From assembly GCF_000004825.1 (NCBI RefSeq), contig NW_008805070.1, positions 558,001 to 622,000 on the forward strand: a DNA stretch of 64,000 bases. Reading direction: 5' to 3'. The stretch comes from Heterostelium album PN500. Taxonomy: Eukaryota > Evosea > Eumycetozoa > Acytosteliales > Acytosteliaceae. The first letter of the stretch is position 1, and each line of letters begins with the position of its first letter. Below are positions 10,227 through 60,881 of this stretch, one piece after another. The position numbers and the translations under genes are program-made. Below the pieces are notes generated by a model. That model was not told where the DNA came from. It did no database searches and saw only the letters and a list, made by a program, of their open reading frames with translations.

Positions 10227-10795
10227 ATGGTTATAAAAAACAAGTTATTATTTAATTTACAAATATACTTGTTTATAGCATTAGTTTTTATATCTTATTC
10301 ATGTAAGATTTATATTAAGAAAGAAGCTGTGTATTGTGATCCGTCATTTATTTAGTTGGGTCGGTGGTCATGTTTTTTTTTATTAGTTGATTTATTTTTT
10401 AGTTTAAAAAAAACTGCCCCCACACTATTTATTTGATTGATTTTAACAGTTTGATTAGTGATTCATTGTTATTAATTTTATTTATTATTATTTCGATAAT
10501 CAATTTTAATAGATGTATTAGGTGCTACTGTAATCAGTAAATTAAGTGTTACTTCGGTTACGATTAATCAGAATGTGGACATCACTATCACAGGAACAGG
10601 TATAGTGTGCACTGGTGCCTCTATCGTTATCAGGGGTACGGAGCTCGCCGGCATTTTCACGGTGTATGCTACACCATGTTCTGCCACCTCCATGAAAATC
10701 AACTTTGCACCCAAGGTTGTTGCACTCGGTGCTAAAACACTTGCCATTAAAGTTGGTACTGTTTCATCCAACACCTTGGCCATTACATTCATAGG

Positions 10796-10833
<38 letters not shown>

Positions 10834-13800
10834 TTATTTTTAGTTCAAAGAAATATTAAGCTAACCTAACTAACACTCACTCATAAATAAACAAACTATA
10901 CCAGCACCTACACCAATACTTACTTCTTTAATTCCAAATTATGTTTATACTGTTTCGGCTGGTACTATAACTATCAATGGATCTGGATTTATGTCTGGTC
11001 TATCGACTGCCACCTATGGAGGAGTTGCATGTGGTCTTGGAACGATCACTGCAACTGCCATCGTTTGTAATACCGTATCGGATACCAGTAAATCTGGACA
11101 GGTTCCAGTTGTTGTTATAAACTCTGGAATTTCTTCCGGTTCACTTTCAATGTCATTGATTCGTAAGTATTTGTTATATCGGAGCTCCGATGTGTTAGTT
11201 ATTTAATTGTAAATGATATCAGAGTAGTAACTAACAATTTAAAATTACAAATTTCAATTTTCCAGCACCAACACCAACAGTTACGAAAATTACACCTGCT
11301 TCATATATTATTGGTTCTCCAATGACTATCACTGTGACAGGTACCAATTTCGTACCTATCCCAACTCATTTCTACATTGGTTCACCACCTCCCAACACCA
11401 TCTATCAGATTCCAGAGTTGGTATCGTACACTGCGACTCAGGCCATTATTAAACCATATCCATTCACTGTTCCCGGTACCTATAGAATACAGGCTATCAA
11501 TGGAGCTACATCCGGTTCACCTATTGACATGCAATATGTCTTGGAGGTACCTGTCATCAGTAGCATTACACCAAGCAGCTTTGATTATACTCAAACCAAG
11601 ATAACCGTTGCTGGTAGTAAATTCAATGCCGATAGTACATCGATTACAGTTGGAACCTACAATTGTCCGATCATATCGAGAACCACAACCTCTATTGTTG
11701 CAGATATTACCCAACTGCCGCTGGCTGGTGTCCTCCCAGTCAAAGCTCAATATCTCACTGCAGTGTCCAACGTTGTCAATATAAATGTTATCATCCCAAC
11801 ACCTGTAATCACCACAATGGTGCCAGACTATAATAATCTGGAGAACGCACAAAGAAGTACGATCACTGGTACAGGATTTATTAATGGAGTTACCAAGCTC
11901 AAACAGGGAGCCGAATTTATCTATTGGATCTACCAAGTCACCTCTACAATGATTGAATACGCTAATATTGGTATGACAACTTCTGGTAGCTATCCAATCG
12001 TTGCCTACAACAGAAATATTGCATCGAATGCACGGAACTTTGTAGTCGATCTCTACTATCCAACCATCACATCGATCGTTCCCAACAAAGTTCTGAATAA
12101 CCAGACGACATTGGAGTTGACAGTCTTCGGTACAAAGTTTGTTCAATCATCTGGCTTTGCTGTATATGTCAATTCTTCAGTTGCTTTATACAACACCATG
12201 ACTTCGACCAATGTCAAATTCAACTTTAACCCATCCGGAAGGTTGGGAGTCTACATGGTTACCATTAGAAATTCTCAAATGCTTCAAGGCAATGGATATT
12301 TCGAAGTGATTGCACCCACTCCAGTCATTACATCTATCTCACCAAGCTATGTTTATTCGCATCAATCACAACCAATTACCATTCAGGGATATAGTTTTTC
12401 CAATGGTGTTACTCTAACGATCGACGGTGTGTCAGTGCCAACAACATTTGTAAACTCCAATATGTTGACCAGTACATCCGCTGTCTTTCCAAATTTTGGA
12501 GGAACCAAAACGGTCAAAGTACTTGCAAGTGGAAATCTCTTTTCAACGTATCCATTGACCTATCGTCTTCCTTCTCAACTGGTATCGGTCACACCGAAAA
12601 CTGTCATCAACATGAACTCAACATTGATCACTATTAAAGGTATCAGAATCTATCCAGAAATGTCACTCTTTTTCTATGCTACTATGGGTAGCTTTGACAT
12701 GCCAAAAACCATTGTAGATTCGACTACTGTACTCTTCTATACCCCTGAAATCGCAGAGGTTGGACTTAAGTCATTTATGTTGGTGGATGGAACCAATAAT
12801 ATTGTATCCGATACCATAACATTCGAATCTCCACCAATATCCATTCAATCTGTCACACCGAATCATATCATAGTTGGAGCTAGTAGTGCATCACCAAGCA
12901 TCATCACCATTACAGGTAGTGGATTCGACGGTAGAATAACAACATTTGAATACAATCTCAATCAATATGGAAACGTTATGTTTATGAATAAGACTACCAT
13001 CTTCTTCAATCCAACAATGATGCCTGTGGGAACAGTTCAAATCCAATTAAGAAATATCGATATTGTCTCTGAGATTTTCAGTATTACAGGTTTGGACATT
13101 CCAGTTATCACCTCGGTGGAGCCAGCCATTGCCTATGTCTATGACACTAGGGATGGATCGAATATCATCGATATCAGTGGATCTGGATTCACAATGGGAT
13201 GGACTAAAGTAATGGTCGGTCCCTATCAATGCCAAGCCGATTTCTTCCCATATGCCAAAATATTTTGTACGATGCCGGTGGTGACTGCTCCAGGATTACT
13301 ACCAGTCATAGTTTACAATGCAGAGGCAGCATCAAACATTGCCTATATTAATTATATCTATGCGGCCAACATCACCAGCATTACACCAGCGTTTTTATAT
13401 AGCAACAGTTTCACTTCCAACTCGCCGATTACCCTTACTTTGGCAGGTGGTGACTTTGCTCCAACCTCTGAAATCGTCATATCTAATCAACCACTTAATA
13501 TCAATCAGACATGCACCATCATTAGTATTCAAACCAATGAAATTAAATGTTCAATTCCACTGACCAATGTAATTGCTGACTACAGTATCACTGTCTATGT
13601 AAATGGACTACCTTCAAACCTAGTGATATTCAGTGTTATCGATCAACCATTGTCGTGTCTCTCACCATCTGGTGCTGCAGTTTCATGGTGGTTCGCCAGA
13701 AAGCTTCCTCAATCCAGCTCATACCTTTACTTTGACAGTCAATCTAGTGTCGTCCAATATTTTGATTCCATCAATTCCAACAGTAGTTCCCTCGCTTTGA

Positions 13801-16800
13801 CACTGAACCAAATCAAATCAAACAATGTACAAACAACTAATGGATATCTGGCATACAATGATATGCCATGGTTGGATGATCTCTCTGGAAAACTTGCTCA
13901 ATCACTCACCGGTGATGTCAATAAATACAACTCACTTGGAAAGGGTATCCTGGTTTCTCAGTCGAAATTCAACATTAGCTATGCACCCGGTTTCCATATT
14001 AAACATTCACTGGAAGGATTTCCAGTTCCACTTGGTAGTACCGGTGCTATAAAGACACCCTCTAGTTATCCTGACGGAACTTGGTTCCCCAACGACTATC
14101 ATCTCAGACCAACAGAATCGCCGGATCTTTCATTCGGTCATTCATTCCTCTGTCATAGCTTTGTTGATGCAACAGAGATTATCAATGCTATTGTCGCGAT
14201 GAAGCCATTCACCTATGCAAGTAACAGATTCACTGCCAATTCAAACATGTTCACACCAATGTTCCAATCAACAGCTGCGGTGATTCCACCTTTCCGTTCT
14301 AGCAGCTGGCTCACCAACACTGCATTCTTATCATCGGCATTCCAACAAGATATTTTCACACCAGTTGGATTATCGCCACTTCTCATAACAATGCCTGCTA
14401 ATTTCAAACTACCAATTGCAGCCACTGCAATTACAGAGACTAAATTACCATCGGATTTCGTCAGCCAACATAATATCCCAATGCAGATCTCTCAATGGCG
14501 AGCCAGTAGAGATCATAGTCATATTGGATTCAACGACACTCATCTCTGTCTCGGTGACTACTCTGCCAAGACAACAATAGGTGGTGGTATGGCTGTATGC
14601 ATTAAGCAAACTGTTCTAAGTGACTTTTTCATTACATCGATCTTCAAATATCAGCAAACCAATTGCACAACCGTAGATTGCTCCAATCAGATTCAAAATC
14701 AATTCTACATCACTATCAAATCGAAATTGCTTATGGATAGTACCTATGCATCTGCAGGTAGCCCTCTTTCCAGCCATTTAGATTCATTACCAAATCCTCT
14801 ACTTTCCAATACAAAGATAGTTGTTTCCAATATTGGTTGCAGTGGTCCATTGTGTCCACTTCAACAAACCAATGGACAAGTAGTCACCACCGATTCCGTA
14901 GGTCTATTCTCATTCCGTGGTAGCTATACTCCATCTTTCCGAATGCAATTGGAGACCAACGATAGTTCTATCGTAGTAATTCAACAGAATTCAGGTCAAG
15001 TTCTCTCATTCCCAATCGTCGATATCACAGCTGCCTACAAACCACAAACCACCAATATAACTGAAAATAATATTATCTTTATCTTCAAGTTACTGCAACT
15101 GGCCAGACAGGTAGTTGGAGAGTATAGAAATGTTAGTTATGTTGTGAGTGTCAATGGAAATACAGCAATTCTCAATCAACGCTCCAATATCCCAATTGGT
15201 TTGCAATCGCTCAATGTAGACACCGTTTTCCGTGCAATAAGTTACGATCTACTCTTACAGCTAAACAATGGTTACCAAGCCGTTGGTCTTCCAAATATCT
15301 ATCAATTTGACAGCTTCACAGACTCTACATCCTCTGCAACTCTTGGTGGTTTGACCAACTTTTTAGCAATGAAACTCAGACAATTGACTTTGCCACAACT
15401 ACCAACAAGCATTGTACAAACCCTCATCGATGCAAATGGACAACCAATTAACATGGAGTTATTCACAACTTCAAGAATGACTAGAAAGAATGCAGTATAC
15501 AGTCAAGGTTGGATTACAGCTTATCTTTGGGATTTGATTGATGAAGAGAACGATGACTATGTTGATACCAATCTTAGAAAGCCACCTCACTATGATAGTA
15601 ATCGTGGAAGTGAAATTGAATTCTCCACAATCATAAACAATACTATCAATAGTCAAGCAGCAAATAGCGATATTATTTCATTTAGTAAATCGTTGTTTGA
15701 ACAGATCCCCACATATAATCCACTTATTGTTCCACACGCCAATTCAATCATGACATATAACAATATATTCCAGTGTCAATATTGTAGAAATAGTAATCCT
15801 TCGAGCGTCATTGACTCATCCAACTTTGTGCAAACACTTCTTTCCTTTGGAGTTTGCCAATCAACTATTGACTCAATGGAAATTCCGCCAATTGAAGAGG
15901 TAGAGAAGTTTGCATCTTTCTGGATTTCATCGTTGGAGCAACCGACCAATTGGCTAACAAATCGTGGTATTCAATTGGTTTACGGTAGTCAAGCGTTTGC
16001 CTCGGCATATAATAATTCCATTATCTTGGAATCATTGTTACAGGTTGTCGATACAACTCTCTGTGAGTTTGGAATTGAGAAAGGTTATCCTGTCACTCCA
16101 AAGGGATTCGAAATCTTGACAAGAGTTCTCCAGAGTCAAATCAACCTTGCTCAACAAAGAATTCAATACAATCAGGTGGAAACCTACTTTGTTCTATTCT
16201 CACAAGCCACCGGTACCGGCTTGACAATTGTCACCTACAGAAACTATCTTTGTGGATTCGCTATAACTAGCCAAGCCGATTTCGAAAGTGGCCAAGTTCT
16301 TTCACTCTGTCCAAGTGGTCCTATTGTAACTTCGATCAGTGGTGTCACCGGTCCAACTCATGCCAATAACAAGATTACATTGGTCGGTCGAAAACTATCG
16401 GAACCAGGTGTACAAGTTAAAGTTGGAGACAAACTGTGTACTGTTGACACTGCTTCTGACCAACAATTAATATGTGTAGTTGGTCAAGGTGTTGGAGTAT
16501 TACCTATTAGCTATTCAAATACAATTAGCAATTTACCAACTGAAACCCCATTGAAACAATATCAATTCACCTATAATCAACCGGTTTTCAGCTCCATTGT
16601 TAAACCGACTCCAATTGTATCGACTGTTGGTGATACCATCACTTTACTTGGACAAAACTTTGGATTCACTAATCGAGATACCAGGTTATTGGTTGACAGA
16701 ATTCCAATGGATATCCAAAGTTTCATATATGACGCTGCGAATGGCGTTGAAGGTTTAGTTTTCAGGTCGAATGGAACAGGTATCAATAAGCTTATCAATG

Positions 16801-19800
16801 TAGCAGTTGGTAATCAATCCACTGATTTTTCTGAGGATTTTGCCATCTCTTACAAAGCACCGACAGTCACTGGCATCTCTGTCAACAGCTCACCAACACC
16901 TGGTGGAGGAATTATGACTGTCACTGGTACTTCTTTTGGTGACCTCATTTTTGATCCAATGGAGGTTTTCGTTGGTTCTGAGGCATGTACCGATACAACA
17001 AAGATCGACGATAACACTGCCATATGTACGATTCCAGCGCATTGGGGTATCAACCAAGTCGGTGTGATAGTAGATGGACAGGTTTACTATGATGGGCCAA
17101 CATTTACCTATCCACCTCCGGTCATCTTCCAAGTGATCCAACCAAATGTAACTGCCAACACATCGGTTCAAACAGAGTTCTGGGTTGTTGGTTCCGATCT
17201 TGGTCCACTCGGAGGTACCGATTTCAACATGACACTTTTCTCTAGTGTCACAGTGCAATGTGAAGCTGATTACGATTGCAACTACCAACAGACTTACGAA
17301 GACGAAAATGGAAATGCAATCCCAGTTCCAACCGATCCCTATCACAGCGGATATTTCGATCCATTTGTTATGATGAATGAATCCTATCGTTCAACCGTCA
17401 ACTTTGACTGTTTACTATGTACTTTGTATCCAGGTATAGGATTTAATATTCCAGTGAATCTTTCCTATGCTTATTATTCATCAAATATTGTTAGTAATGT
17501 TTCATTCAACAGACCGACCATCTTGAACGTATCGGTGGTTGGTAGTAGTACAGATGGTGGCCAACCAATCAGCATTACAGGTTACGATTTCGTTCCAAAT
17601 GAACTTAATTTCACGCTTGAAACGATTGATTTCTTTACTCCAAATCCGTTGTACTCCACACTTGAAGGACCTCTCAGCTACAGTAATGCAAGCATTGGAA
17701 ACTATCCAATGAGCAACATTATATTTACAAACTCTACGTTGGTAAACGCCATTATTCCACCTGGAATTGGTTGTAATCTATCGGTATCACTATTTATTGG
17801 TGGACAAGATGCACCACAATCATTCTTATTCTCCTATAATGCTCCTACAATCAACAGCTTTACAAAATCCAATACCGATGGTCGCTCCATCACTATTGAA
17901 GGTTCAAACTTTGTGCCTGAAAATGTTGAACCTCTAAATTCGAATATCACGATCAACAACAAACCGTGTACTGAAATCGAATGGGCTAGCTCATTGCAGA
18001 TCGTTTGCAAAGCACCAGCTGGAATTGGTGCTGAAAATCCATTGATATTGTTTGTAGGTAATCAATCAGCTACCATCCAATTCAGCTATAATGAACCACT
18101 ACTTGATAATATCAAGTATGAAGGTGACTCTGAGGGTGGAGAGTTTATCACAATCGTTGGTGAAAACTTTATCCCTGCTGAATTCGTCAATGAAATCAAT
18201 CAGAAACCACAAGATTCCAATAACTCTGTTTCAATCGATGGAGTCAATTGTATGACCGTTGAGTGGATTGACTTTGATAAAGTTAAATGCCAAATTCCAT
18301 CTGGAACTGGCAAGAATTTGGATATCAAGGTTATTGTTGGATCACAAAACTCAGTTATAAATCAATTATTTGATTATACAGATGATGACAGCAGTAGCAG
18401 TAGTAGTAGCAGTGAAAACAGTCATGAGGATACCACTACCACTACCACCACCTCGACCTCTACATCGTCAACCTCAACCACCTCCACATCTTCAACTTCT
18501 ACAACCTCTGACTCAAGTACAACTTCAACTTCTACAACCTCTGACTCAAGTACAACTTCAACTTCATCAACCACATCAACTTCTTCTCAAGCTACTACTG
18601 GTACTACTGGTACTACTTCTGGACTTACCACTGGATCAACAACTGGTGCAACTACTGGTGCGTCAAGTACAACAGGTGCACTCGAGGAAATCATTAGTCA
18701 AGAAATCTATCTCTTGGAGATTGAGGAAATCAATTGGGAAGTCATTCCAAAGATCAGAGTAAAGGTTATCATCAAAACAACTATTGGACCAATAATAAGA
18801 AAACCTGTTTTCACAGGTCCCACGATCTTAACATTGGAGCCACCACCTGGATTCATTTTCCCAGTTACTGACTTCCAATGGATTAAATTCTATCGAGTAA
18901 CAATCATTAGTTGGGAACTATGGCAAACCAAAATCATTTCAAGATTCTCATTCAACTTTGGATTTAAACTTGCTGAGTGGAAAGAGTTGGCTTTGTGACT
19001 TTGAAAGCGAAACCGAAGATGAAAGACCAGGTGAAAACGATCCAGACCCTCAGTTCCCAGCATGGATGAACGTAACACCAGGAAGCACACCACCACCACC
19101 ACCAGCCCTACTCTTTGAAACAAAGATCACTGGTAAACTCTATGATGATAGAAACTACAATGGAGTATTTGACGATGGTGATATTCAACTGAACATTGAT
19201 GGTCTGGAAATCGGATTGATCTCTGATGATAACACCACCTACACCCAAGCAACTATTAATGATGATGGTACCTATGAAATTAAGACAACAAGACAATTAG
19301 GTTACTATGCTATCATGGTTACTTCTTCACCCAACTTTGGTGTCAACTACTTCCTCCCACAAACCAGATTCCACAGTCCATTCACCTTTGAAGGTTGGGA
19401 GCAAGATATTCCTGTATTTAGAAAATGTATGTTGTTTTAAATATAATTTGATTACTTTTTGAAAACATTACTAATAATCTAATTATTTTTAGCACCAAAT
19501 GGATGTATTGGAACAGTATCAACTCCATCTAAAGATGTTAGACTTCAATATGGTCAATTTAATTTGGTCAACTTTGATATCTATCCATATGAAAATGTTA
19601 CTACAAATTTCCCACCCTATTGTCAAGTCACATTAAGTCAATCAGTTTTATCCATTAAATATAGTATGTTATTTATATTTTCCCAAAAAAAAACTACAAC
19701 TTGACTTACTAACCAACCATCTCACATTATATAGAAACAAATCTCAATCTCGCATTATTTAATGATATCAATTTGGATGGAAACAGTTCAAGTACGATTT

Positions 19801-22800
19801 TGTCACAAATCAAATATGATGTTATTTCGACAGTGGAAGGAAATCTCCTTCAGAGAGCATTCACTTATCCAGCAGATAACCAAATTGACTTACCATCCAC
19901 CTCACGTATTGTTTTTGATAAGTTGATATCAATGGTACCAATCATTGACAACTATCTGGTCACAGTTGAAAATCCAAACATTATCTCTACCATTAATGAA
20001 TCGATTGGTTTTATAGTACCCACACCATCAAAGATAATCACATTCGTCAGCTCTGACACCTCGGAAATCCTATCTTTGACCTACGCTAAATTCACTTCCA
20101 GCTTCTTTGCCAATATCGGTTGGAATCATTCGTTACTCTCCTTTAGTGTCGGTGACAATCAAACTGTTATCTACTCAAATGGACAAGATGTTCGTATATT
20201 CGATAGCTCTCCATATGAATATTCTGTTTCATCAATTGTATACGGAAACATTGAAATTGTCAATCCAAGTAAGTTTTATATAAATGATTTTTAAATTTGG
20301 CTACATTAACTAATAACTACTTCAAACATTATAGATTTGTTCCCTCAGTTTGTACCAAACAACGGATTAAACTTGACAATTACCAACGATTATCCATTTG
20401 GAACTCCAACCTATTCAATTGACGGAGTTCAAATCGTATGTGTTGTAGCATCACAAGGAAATCTCCTTGAATGTACTATTCCAGAATGGACTAGCGGTTC
20501 TCTTACAAAACAAATCACATCCACTTGGAACAGTAATAATCTCTTTGATTATTATACCATAACCTACTTGGAGCCAACCACTACCACCGGAACAACAACT
20601 ACTACATCTGAGACAACTTTATCCAGCACAACTGAATCATCAACTACAAGCTCCACAACAGGTGGATCAACAACTACCACTACTGACCCATCCACAACCG
20701 AACAGTCCACTACTGGTACTACTGATCAGATAACTACCACTACTACCACTACTGGAACTACTGGAACTACTGATCAAATAACAACTACTACCACTACAAC
20801 AGCTGAACCGATAACTACCGGACCATCTACAACTGGAACTACTGATCAGATAACTACTACGACCACTACTAGTAGCACTACAACAGCTGAACCAATAACT
20901 ACTGGACAATCCACTACTACCTCTACTGGATCCACCACAGGTGGTAATCCGACAGTTGGTCATTTAAGTGGATATATATTCGATGATGCAAATCTCAACA
21001 ATTTCTTTGATTCTGGTGAATCTGCTCTATCCAATATATCCGTTCAAATTGTTGGTCCATCTGTAAATATCATTGTGAATACAAATACAAGTGGACTCTT
21101 TGATTTGGAGATCTCCAGTACTGGTTTATATAGCATAAAGGTAATTTCAACTTCTTACTTTATGCCTGAACAAGTGATGAAAGTTTCAATTGCCAATATT
21201 GAGGATTACCAAGTAAACGTCACCGTATTTAGTAAATCGGGATATGGATGTCTTGGAACCATTAGAAATTCTTTCAATAAGAAACTTTCAGTACAATATG
21301 GCGCCATAGATTTATCACTCTTCAACTATCAATCTACCTCTTTGTACGACACCTACTCGCTCCCATCCAACTGCTATGCACAAAAGAATGGATCTATACT
21401 CACAGTTCAATATAAATCGAATATAAATCTTCAGTTGTATATCGACGAAAACTTCAATGGAATGTTAGATGCCACCGAAAATTCAACCTATCCGACCAAC
21501 GTCACGCTTATCATGGAATCGACCAATGATGGTATCAACATCAGTCGTACCTATCCAATTGAACAGCTACCATTGAATCTAACTGTTAATGTACCAAATA
21601 ATAGCACAATCAGAATTTTGGCTCAAGACGATGTCGCCAATATCACCACCATTTACAATACCAAATACTATATTATTGCCAAACCAAACACAATCTCCAA
21701 TTTAACTGACAACTTTGGATTCTTAACTGCCAACCCCAACAATACCATCTCGATTTCAAACAATAGCTCATTATCCATATCTCTTCCTTATGGAAAGTTC
21801 AACTGGACATTCTTTGAGAATATTGATTGGAATAATTCTTTAGTTTCCATTGATCCAAGTCCTGATCAATTAGTGATTGTTTCGTCAATCACTGAAAGAT
21901 TAAATATTACACATAACAACCAATCTACAGTACTATCAAATTTCAACATTACGTATATTGAAATTGTTTATTTAGGTATGTTTATAACCAAAATATAAAT
22001 ATGAATAATAATTTTATTATACTAACTAATTACTATTATATTTAGATTTGTTTACAAATATATCAACTGTTCCTATCAATGGAGGAATCATTCAGTTAAA
22101 GAATATATATTGGAGTGGAGTCATTACACCTGTGCTGTCTATAGGAGGAATAACTCTTAACTGCTCGCTTCTAAATGAAACTACTTCATTTGTGAATTGC
22201 AGCGTACCACCTTATACAAGTGGACCATATAGCATACCAATTGATATTGTTTGGAATGGAATGATTCTTTTCTCAAATGGCACTATTAACTATGAAGTAC
22301 CGGTTACAACTAGTTCATCCACAACCTCAAGCGGAATTGCAACAACCTCTACTGCTGATACTACAACAACAACTAGTGCTACAACATCTAGTGGACTAGC
22401 AACAACAGAATCACTTACTACCACAACAACCTCTGATGTTACAACCTCCACCAGTGTTGATACAACTACAGGTGCTACAACCTCCAGTGGAATTGCAACA
22501 ACAAATCCATCTACTACCACAACGACCTCTGATGGTACAACAGCCTCTACAACTGTTGATACAACAACAAGTGCTACAACAGATTCATCTACTACTACCA
22601 CTACCTCAGATTCTACAACAGCCTCCACCACTGTTGATACAACAACTATTGCTACAACATCTACCGGAATTACCTCTGATGCTGCGACAACTTCTGGAGG
22701 AATTACAACCTCCATTGGACAACCAACGACATCAACACCAACCACCGATACTACTTCCGATAGTGCAACAACATCTAGTGGAACTGAATCTGCAACTACA

Positions 22801-22821
22801 GGAAATCCTAACTTTACATAA
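10227..22821 (+). CDS. Giant secreted IPT/TIG-repeat protein with embedded DNase II-like domain and SdrD-B-like modules
   Basis: One gene read as eight exons: 10227..10302, 10513..10794, 10905..11162, 11266..19426, 19493..19663, 19735..20268, 20335..21975, 22046..22821, all introns in phase 1; about 3,965 residues. Order: signal peptide (residues 1-25); about ten IPT/TIG repeats, each opening like TPVITSISPSY; a DNase II-like domain (about residues 1000-1330; WFARKLP, KHSLEGFP, RDHSH, LGDY, GGGMAVC); a region with GWITAYLWDLID that I cannot assign firmly; about seven more TIG repeats; a Ser/Thr-rich linker (18380-18680); then two homologous modules, each with an SdrD-B-like domain (KLYDDRNYNGVFDDGD; YIFDDANLNNFFDSGE), separated by Thr-rich stalks. 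I see no C-terminal membrane segment or GPI tail, so secretion into the matrix or prey space is likely. The frame shifts by one base near 18981-18983 (an A3 run); dropping one A restores all downstream phases. An adhesion or digestion role is inferred. Confidence 0.85.
10801..10830. repeat. (AT)n microsatellite in intron 2 of the giant gene
   Basis: A run of about 15 AT dinucleotides directly after the GTATGT donor of the intron at 10795-10904. It is the sort of tract that varies in length between isolates. Confidence 0.85.
13648..14640 (+). other. DNase II-like domain within the giant protein
   Basis: About 325 residues starting SCLSPSGAAVSWWFARKLP, which parallels the start of animal DNase II (Cys, Gly, then V-x-WF and K-LP). 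Further parallels in the same order: YLYFDSQSS, LAYNDMPW, GKGILV, KHSLEGFPVP (14001-14030, the family HS-x-P-x-FP segment), GHSFLCHSF, RDHSH (14508-14522, the family DHSK), THLCLGDY, and GGGMAVCI (the family GGGTLC). Order and spacing match a whole domain. The second catalytic motif reads H-x-H where animal DNase II has H-x-K, so activity is uncertain. Confidence 0.72.
19117..20580 (+). repeat. Tandem module 1: SdrD-B-like domain, Cys module and TIG-like end
   Basis: Module 1 runs GKLYDDRNYNGVFDDGD, then CIGT, YGQFNLVNF, NLNLALFND, FFANIGWNHSLLSF and IEIVNP, followed by an intron and LFPQFVPNNG and ITSTWNSNN, ending in a Thr-rich stalk. Module 2 (20955-22310) repeats this order with GYIFDDANLNNFFDSGE, CLGT, YGAIDLSLF, NINLQLYID, FFENIDWNNSLVSI and IEIVYL, then the intron. 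The terminal intron falls at the same place and phase in both. Confidence 0.8.
20955..22310 (+). repeat. Tandem module 2, homologous to module 1
   Basis: Second copy of the module described at 19117-20580. It carries the shared phase-1 intron (21976-22045, matching 20269-20334 in module 1). It lacks the introns that module 1 has before CIGT (19427-19492) and before the NLNLALFND strand (19664-19734), so introns were gained or lost after duplication. A Thr/Ser stalk and the stop codon follow. Confidence 0.8.
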
Positions 22822-57132: not shown

Positions 57133-57557
57133 AATCTGTATTTATTTTAGATCTAAAAAAGAAAAGTATATCACACATTCAATTATTATTAATGGTTTTA
57201 AAAATAGAGTTAAAAGTACATCAATTTTTTTTGAAACAGTGGGTGGTACATCAAAAAAAAGGAACAAACACTGTGTTTGTGTTGATAAAATTAAAAAAAA
57301 AATCCACCCTTCTGGATGTAGGTGGCAAGGGCTAACCCAAAATGGTATTGTTTTATAATTTTAAGTTGGATTTGACATCTATTAAATAAACAAGTAAAAA
57401 TATATTGAGGTGACCCAATTTTCAAGGAAGATTTTAGAAGATTTAGATTAGAATTATTTTATAAACAAAAAAAAATCCTTCAATTCCAGTATTAATAAAT
57501 ACCTGAAGGTCATTTAATCAAATTAGTTTAGTTTATTTTTTTTTAGCTTTTCTCAAG
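57133..57557 (+). other. Intergenic region with nested palindromes
   Basis: Within it, 57241-57308 can fold: GGGTGG (57241-57246) with CCACCC (57304-57309), and inside it ACAAACAC (57264-57271) with GTGTTTGT (57273-57280). CCACC and GGTGG also pair at 57304-57326. It lies just after the peptidase gene, so it may be a 3'-end structure. No gene is supported, although a frame happens to be open across it. Confidence 0.5.
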
Positions 57558-60500
57558 ATGAAGTTTATATATTTAATTTTATTTTGTTTTATCTCAATTT
57601 TTACAAGTTCATCATTGGCTTACCAATGGATTATTACTCATCAATTAAATCCAGATGGAAGTTTAGAGAGCATTAGAATGAATTCATTTCTTATTGATGT
57701 TTGCTATACTACAGGAAACAACAATACATCTTTCAAGATGACTTTAGATAATAATAGCAATAGTACATACATTTTTTCTTTTTTATATCCAAATGCTAAT
57801 TGTAAGGATGGAAATTTACTAATAAGGGAGATTCCACTATCATTGGAAAATGCAGATGAATTTGGATTATATGGAGAAATATCAACATCACCACATATTC
57901 CACAATTCAAACATAATGTATATTTTGAAGTTTTACCAGTATTATCAAATTGTACATTTAACTCAAATTATACAATTGGTAGGGTATCAATGGAATTGTT
58001 GAATTCATGTAATTGGGAAATTTCAATGAATAGAGAAAACCATTTAATAATTGTTCCCCTATTGGATATGTATTCATATGACACAAATCCAAATAGTTGT
58101 TCAGACTACCAATTGACTGTAAACTATTACTTTAACACATGTCAATTTATAGAATCGGAATTGGGAATTATCAATTTTAGACCAATTCATTTCAATGTTT
58201 TATACGAAATATTGGATTGGAAAACAATAAACATTTACTCAATAACCAATTCATTCGATCAAAGTTCCATCTATGATATTGGATATTTAAACAATACCCT
58301 TTGTAGAAATACTCAAAATTGTATTTTAAATATTCAATATGAAAGTTCAATTTCGAAAAATGTATCAATTTGGGTTCAATTGGTCAATACTGTAAATTCT
58401 TCTTACAGGTGGAATATCGAATTAAATATTGAAGTACCAATTCTTAAAAACATTCAAATACAGCCAAGAACTTCTTCTTACGACTTTTCGATTGAGATAA
58501 GTGGTCCTCTCAATTCATATGATCTCATCGTTAATACTACTCACAAGTATTATATTTCTTCAACTACATTTTCTATTCAAAATTTCTATTCTGGTAATAT
58601 CATTGGTCTTAGTGCTTCAACACTTGCTATCTATGTGAAAATCAATGAAACTATTATTCAATTGTATAACTCAGAGCCTCTTTTCCTCTTAGATCCTATA
58701 TTTTCAATCTATAATAACTTCTCAAGTTATGTGGAAAACATAAAGTATTATGTTGTTTTTCATGTGTTTGGAAGAGAATATTCACCTCTACCTAATGACT
58801 CCAAAGTTTACATTTCAATCAATAATTCAAATCTAGTGGAGTTATACGACTCCAATACTCAGATGATAATTCCTCTTCACAATAATACACTCTATTACAT
58901 TTCATTTTGGGCAAGTTATGATGGTTTTAATAGTACAAAATTATATTTTCAACCTATTTCCTTTAGTTCAGATTTTGAACCTCCAGCATTATTGGTTTTT
59001 TCAGGTCCAAATTTTGCTAGAGTTTCTTTTGATTCAATACCAAGTTATCTTGGAGATAGACATTATTCAATTATTCTAAATGGATATCCTTATGTTGTTC
59101 CTAGAGATGGTGACACTTTTCCAAATGTCGCTCTTCAAAATTTAAATGATTCAGTTGTTCATAACATTACTGTTCTCGCAAGATACAATGAAGAAACAAA
59201 AAAATCAACAAGTTTGTTTCGAATATATTCATTACTTAAAAAACCTATTATCAAGAAAATCTATGATCAAGATCTTGTTTATATTTATCTCTCTGGAGAA
59301 GGTGGTGACTCACAATCATATAGATTTTCTGTTGGTGAAGAAGATTATTTTTTAAGATACAGAACTACAATATTTTATAATAAAGGAAAAACAAATGAAC
59401 CTATCATTTTTACTATATCAGATAAGTTTGGAACTAGAAGGTCAATCTTGGAAATGATTGATTATTATCCTTGTAAGATAAAATTTTTAAATATGTTTGT
59501 TATTTTTACTAATATTCTTAAAGCAATTGAAAATATACCATTTAGATATAATATATCTAAAGATTCGATTTCAATTCGATGGGATGAATCAATAGGTGGA
59601 AAACCAAATTCTTCTTTTTATGATCATCGATTTCTATGAATGGTTTTGAATGGTCGATTATTTGTTCAAATATTTCAAGCAATAATCTATCTAATCCCGA
59701 AAATCTACAATGTAATTTCAAACATCTTATTCCTAACTACTCTTATTATATTAGAGTAACTTGTATGAATTATCTTTTCGTACCAGTTCATCAAGTTTCT
59801 ACTTTTCAAACTCTTGAAAATGGTAAATGTTTCTAAATATTAATTCTCTATCAATTCAATATACTAATAATTTTTAATAGAAATCAAAGGTTGTAGTTCA
59901 AATTGCTCTAATAATGGTGAATGTATAAAAGGAGAATGTCATTGTAAACGTGGCTTTAGTGGTCTGACTTGTCAATCTTTGAATAATGAGCCTATTATTT
60001 ATACAAATCCTAATCAACCATCAATGAATATGTCTACTACTGGAATTTCACATTTCTCTCTTAATTTTGATGAAATCAGAGAAGTCAGTCAAGAGAATTC
60101 TATAGTTTCATCATTTTTTATTTCAAATTTGGATTGGATAAGAGAAACAAAATCATATGAAATTATTAATCCCATTGATAACAGTATTGTTCAATATAAT
60201 GAATGGAACTATAAATTGAAATCAAAAATTCTACAATTGGATTCTTTTGAAATCAAATTCTCTCAATATGTTCGATCAAATTCATCAACATCAACCATTG
60301 ATTATATAATTGTGGATTTCATTAAACCGATTCAAATCAAATATGGAAACATCAAGTATCAATTGAAAATTGAAAATTGGAATTTCAAAAGTAGATTGAA
60401 TACTTTGGAGATTGTTTCAATTCCCCAATTTGAATTGAACGAATGTTTAGAATCGAATTATAACATTTTGGATACTGGTGACTTTGTTACTATCTTAATT

Positions 60501-60881
60501 GAAAATTCCCAATCTGAAATCTACGGAAAATTAAACAAATTTGGATATCTGGACTCAATACCAAGAACTATCAATCACTTCTTTTATACCAATTCAAACA
60601 ATTCTTCGGTTAAATTGATCACATCAATTCCATATTTTGAAAAGAATATGATCTTAGATCCTGATTTCTCTCTGTTGTTGCATCCAAATCCTGACAAGAA
60701 CAATTGTAATTCTGAACGAAAGAATATTATTAAATGGAAAATCATTGTTGGAACTGTTTTTGGATCAGTTTTCTTTGCATCAGCTGTATATGCAACAACA
60801 TTTATGATAAAAAGAAATCAAAGAATTGTTTCAGAGAGAGTTAGGCTTGAATCAAAGCTTAAAAATTTTAACAAAAATTAA
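57558..60881 (+). CDS. Single-pass surface receptor with FN3, EGF-like and ComC-type domains
   Basis: Type I membrane protein of about 1,088 residues. Exons 57558..59822 and 59881..60881. Order: signal peptide (MKFIYLILFCFISIFTSSSL); a long Asn-rich beta-type ectodomain with many N-glycosylation sequons; a fibronectin-III-like domain (SISIRWDESIGG to SYYIRVTCMN); one EGF module (CSNNGECIKGECHCKRGFSG); a ComC-type domain (SHFSLNFDEIREVSQEN, SNLDWIRE, YNEWNYKL, IEIVSIPQ-like strands); a membrane span (WKIIVGTVFGSVFFASAVYA); and a short basic tail. D. discoideum relatives such as comC act in cell-cell signalling during development. The frame breaks at 59631-59633: the T3 run needs one more T for the FN3 domain to continue as RFSMNGFEW, and the exon phases then sum correctly. 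A 3'-end fragment of this gene is duplicated at 63326-63480. Confidence 0.85.

Follow-up and report, generated by a model that had tools for sequence, protein, structure and literature searches.

A DNase II-family domain with replaced active-site residues lies between IPT/TIG repeats of a very large predicted protein in Heterostelium album

We analysed a stretch of 64,000 nucleotides from Heterostelium album PN500 (contig NW_008805070.1, positions 558,001 to 622,000 of the forward strand), here called the window, whose positions are counted from its first letter. It carries a very large gene in which a domain of the DNase II family is embedded between two arrays of IPT/TIG repeats, and in which several residues of the DNase II active site are replaced. 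We cautiously favour the reading that the product is a giant secreted TIG protein, whose DNase II-descended domain has lost catalysis and has been kept as a binding head, presumably for DNA or another polyanion.

The main open reading frame (ORF) runs from 11235 to 18998 without a stop, which corresponds to 2,587 codons, or to 2,558 when counted from the first ATG. The Pfam family DNase_II (PF03265) matches ORF residues 778-1112, that is window positions 13653-14657, over profile positions 1-325 of 326, with an expect value (E) of 4.3e-44 and 151.5 bits (cut-off 23). A preliminary description of this DNA, which proposed such a profile search as a check, had recognised DNase II-like motifs in the continuous frame, and all of them are present in the order given there; the domain does lie at 13648..14640, where it had been placed, except that the start is two bases out of frame, the frame running from 13650. 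When the window row was removed from alignment A4 and a profile was made of its 30 bacterial rows, that profile found the window domain at E 4.4e-11; none of 1,000 shuffles did better than E 1.7, and none of 237 other frames of the window better than E 4.6. Profile A1, made from eight sequences of the H. album genome, finds the DNase II of Burkholderia thailandensis (5i3e/5unb) at E 5.9e-14, a match helped by the stand-alone DNase II included among the eight. A single-sequence search of the PDB with the window domain gave no match at E up to 1. The window domain belongs to the DNase II family by descent.

Modelling with AlphaFold2 (window domain plus the 30 bacterial rows) gave a mean predicted local distance difference test score (pLDDT) of 58 and a predicted template modelling score (pTM) of 0.63, the first lobe being good and residues 214-287 poor. 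With this model, the top three Foldseek matches, at E 2.1e-9 to 7.6e-9, probability 1.00, TM score 0.50-0.52 and a root mean square deviation (rmsd) of 9.6-10.6, were chains of the Burkholderia DNase II, the first being 5i3e (E 2.1e-9, TM score 0.51, rmsd 9.7), and the fourth match fell to E 0.61. The comparison with known DNase II structures, also suggested in the preliminary description, thus has 5i3e as its nearest match and does not refute the assignment, but the likeness is partly circular because the alignment behind the model, whose mean pLDDT was only 58, included bacterial DNase II rows. The window domain resembles the Burkholderia enzyme in its Pfam domain, in the order of its motifs and in both catalytic histidines, and this enzyme was the nearest in the comparison of folds; it differs from it in the residues considered next and in being embedded in a giant TIG protein.

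Among the 30 bacterial rows of A4, which takes in 30 of 38 bacterial loci, the first lobe shows the first His in 29, Ser in 30, Pro at +3 in 30 and Lys or Arg at +4 in 28; the second lobe shows Asp-His in 30, Lys in 30, the Asp of GD in 30, Asn in 30 and, after it, Arg in 26. At the same positions the window has, in order, H, S, E, G, D-H, H, D, S and A. Both catalytic histidines (A4 positions 127 and 297) are kept. In the second motif, which reads DHSH, the Lys of HxK found in 30/30 bacterial rows is His, the Asn of GDxN (30/30) is Ser, and both the Pro (30/30) and the Lys/Arg (28/30) that follow the first His are replaced. In the phospholipase-D-type motifs, the Asn of GDxN is catalytic. A motif scan of all 38 bacterial loci found DHAK in 35, one of which (L063) has Gln for the first His; of the remaining three, one has stops in its match, one is a fragment at a contig end and one is matched only in part. 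A pattern search at the DNA level for the second motif carried no information, with 2 matches against 1.39 expected.

The same motif was read in further TIG-type members of the family in this genome. The seven closest paralogs, 54.6-59.8% identical to the window domain (tblastn), have DKSY (four), DRSY (one) or DRSF (two) in this place, so that the second His is lost in all seven. Further members of the window's branch have DFSF (L033), EAPG (L075), EMAG (L076) and DASH (L077), and HxK is absent in 12/12 rows of the branch. In the sister group, [DE]H[SA]K is kept in 14/14 readable loci (L009-L014, L016, L021, L034, L036, L078-L081). Of 26 TIG-type loci with a readable second motif, 14 keep it and 12 do not, the latter being exactly the 12 rows of the window's branch. 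In seven loci (L015, L017, L018, L019, L020, L023 and L035) no position could be assigned to the motif, and the readings exclude others, among them C15:953409, C15:996629, C15:948139, C23:10111 and C23:5805.

A tree of the N-terminal lobe separates the family in the same way. It has 41 rows, namely the window and 11 members without HxK, 13 rows labelled motif-intact, 15 of the 38 bacterial loci and the stand-alone enzyme, and it is unrooted. The 25 rows of the TIG-type family fall on one side of one branch (support 96/91); within them, the 12 rows of the window's branch group together at 100/97 and the 13 labelled motif-intact at 100/99, and the window joins its seven close paralogs in a group of eight (99/98), the seven themselves having a support of 99/97. 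Since the second catalytic motif lies outside the N-terminal lobe, this split is not built from it. It should be noted that, of the 13 rows labelled motif-intact, 12 were read and keep HxK and the second motif of L035 was not read, while the tree lacks L079 and L080, for which the motif was read. A scored TIG match lies near 24 of the 25 family rows; L013 has none and is called TIG-type by its position in the tree.

These data bear directly on the function first proposed, a working nuclease carried on a scaffold, with an inactive binding domain as the fallback. An active enzyme with an altered site would require that both histidines do the chemistry, with the His at the Lys position or other residues holding the phosphate, and the protein would then be a scaffolded DNase digesting prey or extracellular DNA. 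The two histidines of the window copy are indeed in place, so some hydrolysis is possible, and HxK is intact in every sister-group locus that was read. Against this stand the replacement in the window of a Lys and an Asn that are invariant in the bacterial rows, together with the changed Pro and Lys/Arg, the absence of HxK from the 11 other read members of the branch and the loss even of the second His from all seven closest paralogs. We consider an active nuclease unlikely for this gene and prefer the fallback of a domain that is inactive and binds. The idea of a nuclease on a TIG scaffold may instead be true of the sister group.

The ratio of nonsynonymous to synonymous substitution rates (dN/dS, Nei-Gojobori) lies between 0.11 and 0.36 in all 28 pairs of the eight paralogs formed by the window and its seven relatives, although these figures are rough, many dS values being near saturation and two pairs being near-copies. 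They also bear on another explanation, namely a decaying gene or an assembly product, for which the break of the frame at 18998 and the motif losses would be the signs of a pseudogene. Beyond 18998 protein-like sequence resumes in another frame and goes on to about 22821, and frame breaks are present in the paralog loci L003 and L008 as well; the break may be either a sequencing error or real. Decay is nevertheless very improbable, considering the 2,587 codons without a stop, a dN/dS well below 1 in 28/28 pairs, and a break that spares the DNase II-like domain and may be due to faulty sequencing.

Several points weigh against a domain that binds without cutting. The window copy retains both catalytic histidines, unlike its seven closest paralogs. 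A dN/dS below 1 is expected of an active enzyme too, and many of the dS values are near saturation. The fold model is of moderate quality, and its resemblance to 5i3e, with an rmsd near 10 Å, is not independent. Finally, the frame break at 18998 leaves the gene model uncertain towards its C terminus.

The gene, all of whose parts lie on the forward strand, probably starts at an ATG at 10227, with an N terminus resembling a signal peptide and three predicted introns. Exon 1 (10227..10302) would comprise this ATG and a hydrophobic, signal-like sequence, both judged from the sequence by eye, and is followed by a GT donor at 10303 and an AG acceptor ending at 10512, with the frame kept. Splice sites and frame also suggest exon 2 (10513..10794) and exon 3 (10905..11162), both TIG-like by eye; scored alone against Pfam, exon 2 gave no TIG match but only Cep192_D4 at E 0.11. 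After an acceptor ending at 11265, the long exon (11266..18998) holds, in one open frame, TIG repeats, the DNase II-like domain, a segment that we call module X, further TIG repeats and a Ser/Thr-rich tail. The upstream TIG array (11322..13652) has eight matched stretches (Pfam PF01833, E 4.5e-37) and is followed by the DNase II-like domain (13653..14657), by module X (14658..16280, about 540 residues, with an own-genome search and alignment A2 as evidence), and by the downstream array (16281..18380) with six stretches (E 1.6e-49). From its translation, the segment 18381..18998, ahead of the break, is a Ser/Thr-rich linker with a further portion. A probable continuation in other frames or exons occupies 18901..22821 (frames 18901-19440, 19713-20294, 20310-21998 and 22030-22821), with Ser/Thr-rich linkers and a weak SdrD_B match, whose E of 1.2e-4 and 22.7 bits are below the curated Pfam cut-off of 29.7.

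The preliminary description had ten TIG repeats upstream and about seven downstream. Repeats are found on both sides, but those counts are approximate: scanning the whole ORF gives 13 stretches (E 1.9e-73, stretches counted at E up to 1), and scoring the two arrays separately gives 8 + 6. The placing of a DNase II-family domain between two sets of TIG repeats, within a very large protein, is borne out by the Pfam matches, by the signal-like start and by a model nearest to Burkholderia DNase II, and the protein, giant as described, is larger than was seen at first, probably extending from 10227 to about 22821.

Module X has no Pfam family, and NCBIfam gives one match at chance level (E 0.041). 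Among PDB sequences only CTF19 was matched, weakly (E 0.0032 and 0.0083), and a single-sequence model has a mean pLDDT of 31; a degenerate metallopeptidase was considered by eye alone. The module shows no resemblance to the DNase II-like domain. A module X match follows the DNase II-like domain in 12/12 read members of the window's branch, and in the search of its own genome the matches are limited to that branch and its near kin. The sister group has a region of different appearance in that place; a match to the one of L009 follows the domain in 10 of the 14 loci that were read, all but L010, L012, L013 and L014. Counting both kinds, a region of one type or the other lies behind 32 of the 48 DNase_II loci found in the genome. 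The idea of one module X common to both branches is not supported: no locus is present in both match lists, and the comparison of the two profiles gives a probability of 0.1%. Since the two regions do not find each other, module X is a feature of the window's branch. Relatives of module X were not confirmed in viral contigs, and none was found in 296 genomes of one bacterial phylum, a search made without a positive control. The L009 region (L009 5754-6731, alignment A5) belongs to no Pfam or NCBIfam family, except for the end of DNase II at its start.

In the 32.9 Mb genome, PF03265 gave 65 exon-level matches, which were merged by distance into 48 loci, so that the family is large; it is also partly clustered. 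For the TIG repeats, 150 of 729 candidates were scored genome-wide, and the counts are therefore lower bounds. If a TIG match counts as near when it shares the strand of a DNase_II locus and lies no more than 4 kb ahead of it or 7 kb behind it, at least 35 of the 48 loci have one (15 on both sides, 1 in front only and 19 behind only) and 13 have none among those scored; conversely, 130 of the 150 scored matches are near a DNase_II locus. The census is conservative, because the window itself was counted there as behind only though Pfam shows TIG on both sides. The front arm is not found in every member, since in L033 the DNase II match starts at frame residue 42, behind a signal-like sequence and with no TIG ahead, and is followed by module X. 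One of the 48 loci is the stand-alone DNase II, whose motifs are intact.

A distinct group of DNase II-like loci, with no scored TIG nearby, was observed on contigs C27, C9 and C3 (L022, L024, L025, L027, L028 and L030); it occupies five places on C27, and its second motif is RHEK or NHEK (HEK), with GDSNRND behind. Near the ends of C3 and C23, pairs of DNase II matches have nearly equal scores (C3:16928 and C23:10111; C3:21454 and C23:5805), and these contig ends may be duplicated or doubly assembled.

Most of the bacterial DNase II relatives found lie in frames of 309-472 codons. Among 395 genomes of one bacterial phylum, DNase_II was matched in four, whose frames measure 349-366 codons and in one case contain a stop, and no fusion of TIG to DNase_II was seen; one of the four is the genome on which this search was centred. 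DNase II of the window type was not confirmed in viral contigs. The earlier statement that DNase II enzymes are stand-alone is too strong as a rule, since 3 of the 38 bacterial loci, labelled as Planctomycetaceae (L067), an Akkermansia metagenome-assembled genome (L070) and Verrucomicrobiales (L072), have up to 434-478 open codons ahead of the match. No second Pfam family was found in these three long frames at E up to 0.01.

How such a protein might work can be outlined from its sequence. The long TIG arrays would hold out a core made of the DNase II-descended domain and module X. With the second-lobe residues of the phospholipase-D-type active site lost, the DNase II reaction on DNA would probably be gone, while selection would preserve the sequence of the domain and the His of the first lobe. 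A head derived from a nuclease that has lost these residues and yet is preserved is most economically read as a binding head, for DNA or for another polyanion, and DNA is the ligand suggested by descent and by the motif-intact sister group. Several such proteins, spread out by their repeated TIG arms and Ser/Thr-rich linkers, would together form an extracellular coat, which could hold the DNA of prey bacteria or of the amoeba's own matrix. Going farther, one ancestral fusion of DNase II and TIG might have given rise to a two-part extracellular DNA system, with scaffolded cutters and non-cutting DNA holders that would jointly build or remodel a DNA-containing coat around cells or trapped bacteria, a scheme that we regard as speculative.

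The IPT/TIG repeats are shared with the Tiger (Tgr) proteins of Dictyostelium (in the window PF01833, with its 13 stretches), and this raises an alternative in which the old fold has been reused for the recognition of cells or bacteria, as a domain that serves adhesion or binds a ligand and has nothing to do with DNA. It is in keeping with this that the TIG-bearing Tiger proteins mediate cell-cell interaction in Dictyostelium, according to the available text of one report (PMC3188802), that the active-site residues are replaced and that the family has many members, some of them in clusters. But the Tgr proteins are described as transmembrane in the portions available of two reports (PMC3188802, PMC12821622), where a DNase II-like core, present in the window gene, goes unmentioned, and no hydrophobic tail was seen by eye at the 22821 end, which is rich in Thr and Ser, a reading that depends on the gene model past 18998. 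Moreover, the nuclease motif of the sister group points to a DNA-related role in the ancestor. An adhesion domain of this kind is possible but on balance doubtful. Colossin and other proteins with SdrD_B or Cna_B repeats are alike only in the weak SdrD_B match behind the TIG part of the gene, which remains below the Pfam cut-off, while the main frame consists of TIG and a DNase II-like domain.

Lineage-specific expansion of DNase II-like genes is known elsewhere. For Trichinella spiralis, the available text of one study (PMC4148230) gives 125 predicted DNase II-like genes, one of them with the HKD motif. That family is likewise a lineage-specific expansion, with most members reported to lack the motif; in H. 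album, by comparison, the losses fall within a single branch, its sister group having retained the motif, and a TIG scaffold is not mentioned for Trichinella in that text. Among dictyostelids, the IPT/TIG orthogroup OG5_153020 has 9 members in D. discoideum and 43, 35 and 50 in three other species (PMC4334915) and, like the family of the window, is thus a large IPT/TIG family outside D. discoideum. In the portion of the article available, the orthogroup is described with epidermal growth factor (EGF)-like and C-type lectin domains, and no word for DNase or deoxyribonuclease occurs in the main text; an overlap with the family of the window is likely. The available text of another study (PMC8535579) names 'deoxyribonuclease II activity' among the Gene Ontology (GO) terms that lineage-specific expansions of five dictyostelids have in common, so the fact of an expansion had already been noticed. 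As far as these partial texts go, the TIG and the DNase II expansions are each in print separately. New here is that the two meet in the same genes of the H. album genome and that the family is split into a motif-intact and a degenerate part. We found neither the combination nor the branch split described in the open-access literature; most subscription papers were outside the scope of this search, which is no proof of absence.

It follows as a possibility that the TIG expansion reported separately may be largely the same genes as the DNase II expansion, and that the expansion labelled 'deoxyribonuclease II activity' in five dictyostelids may partly comprise members without HxK. Dictyostelium discoideum is reported, in the available text of one article, to cast DNA nets that trap bacteria (PMC4773522), and proteins that hold or trim extracellular DNA are therefore to be expected in such amoebae; the family of the window is a concrete candidate set for them, with the nets of D. 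discoideum serving as a setting only and not as evidence for the window protein.

Elsewhere in the window, 57507-60881 encodes, as judged by eye, a large protein of membrane type that has an EGF-like segment and, at its C terminus, a hydrophobic stretch; it may be a further surface protein.

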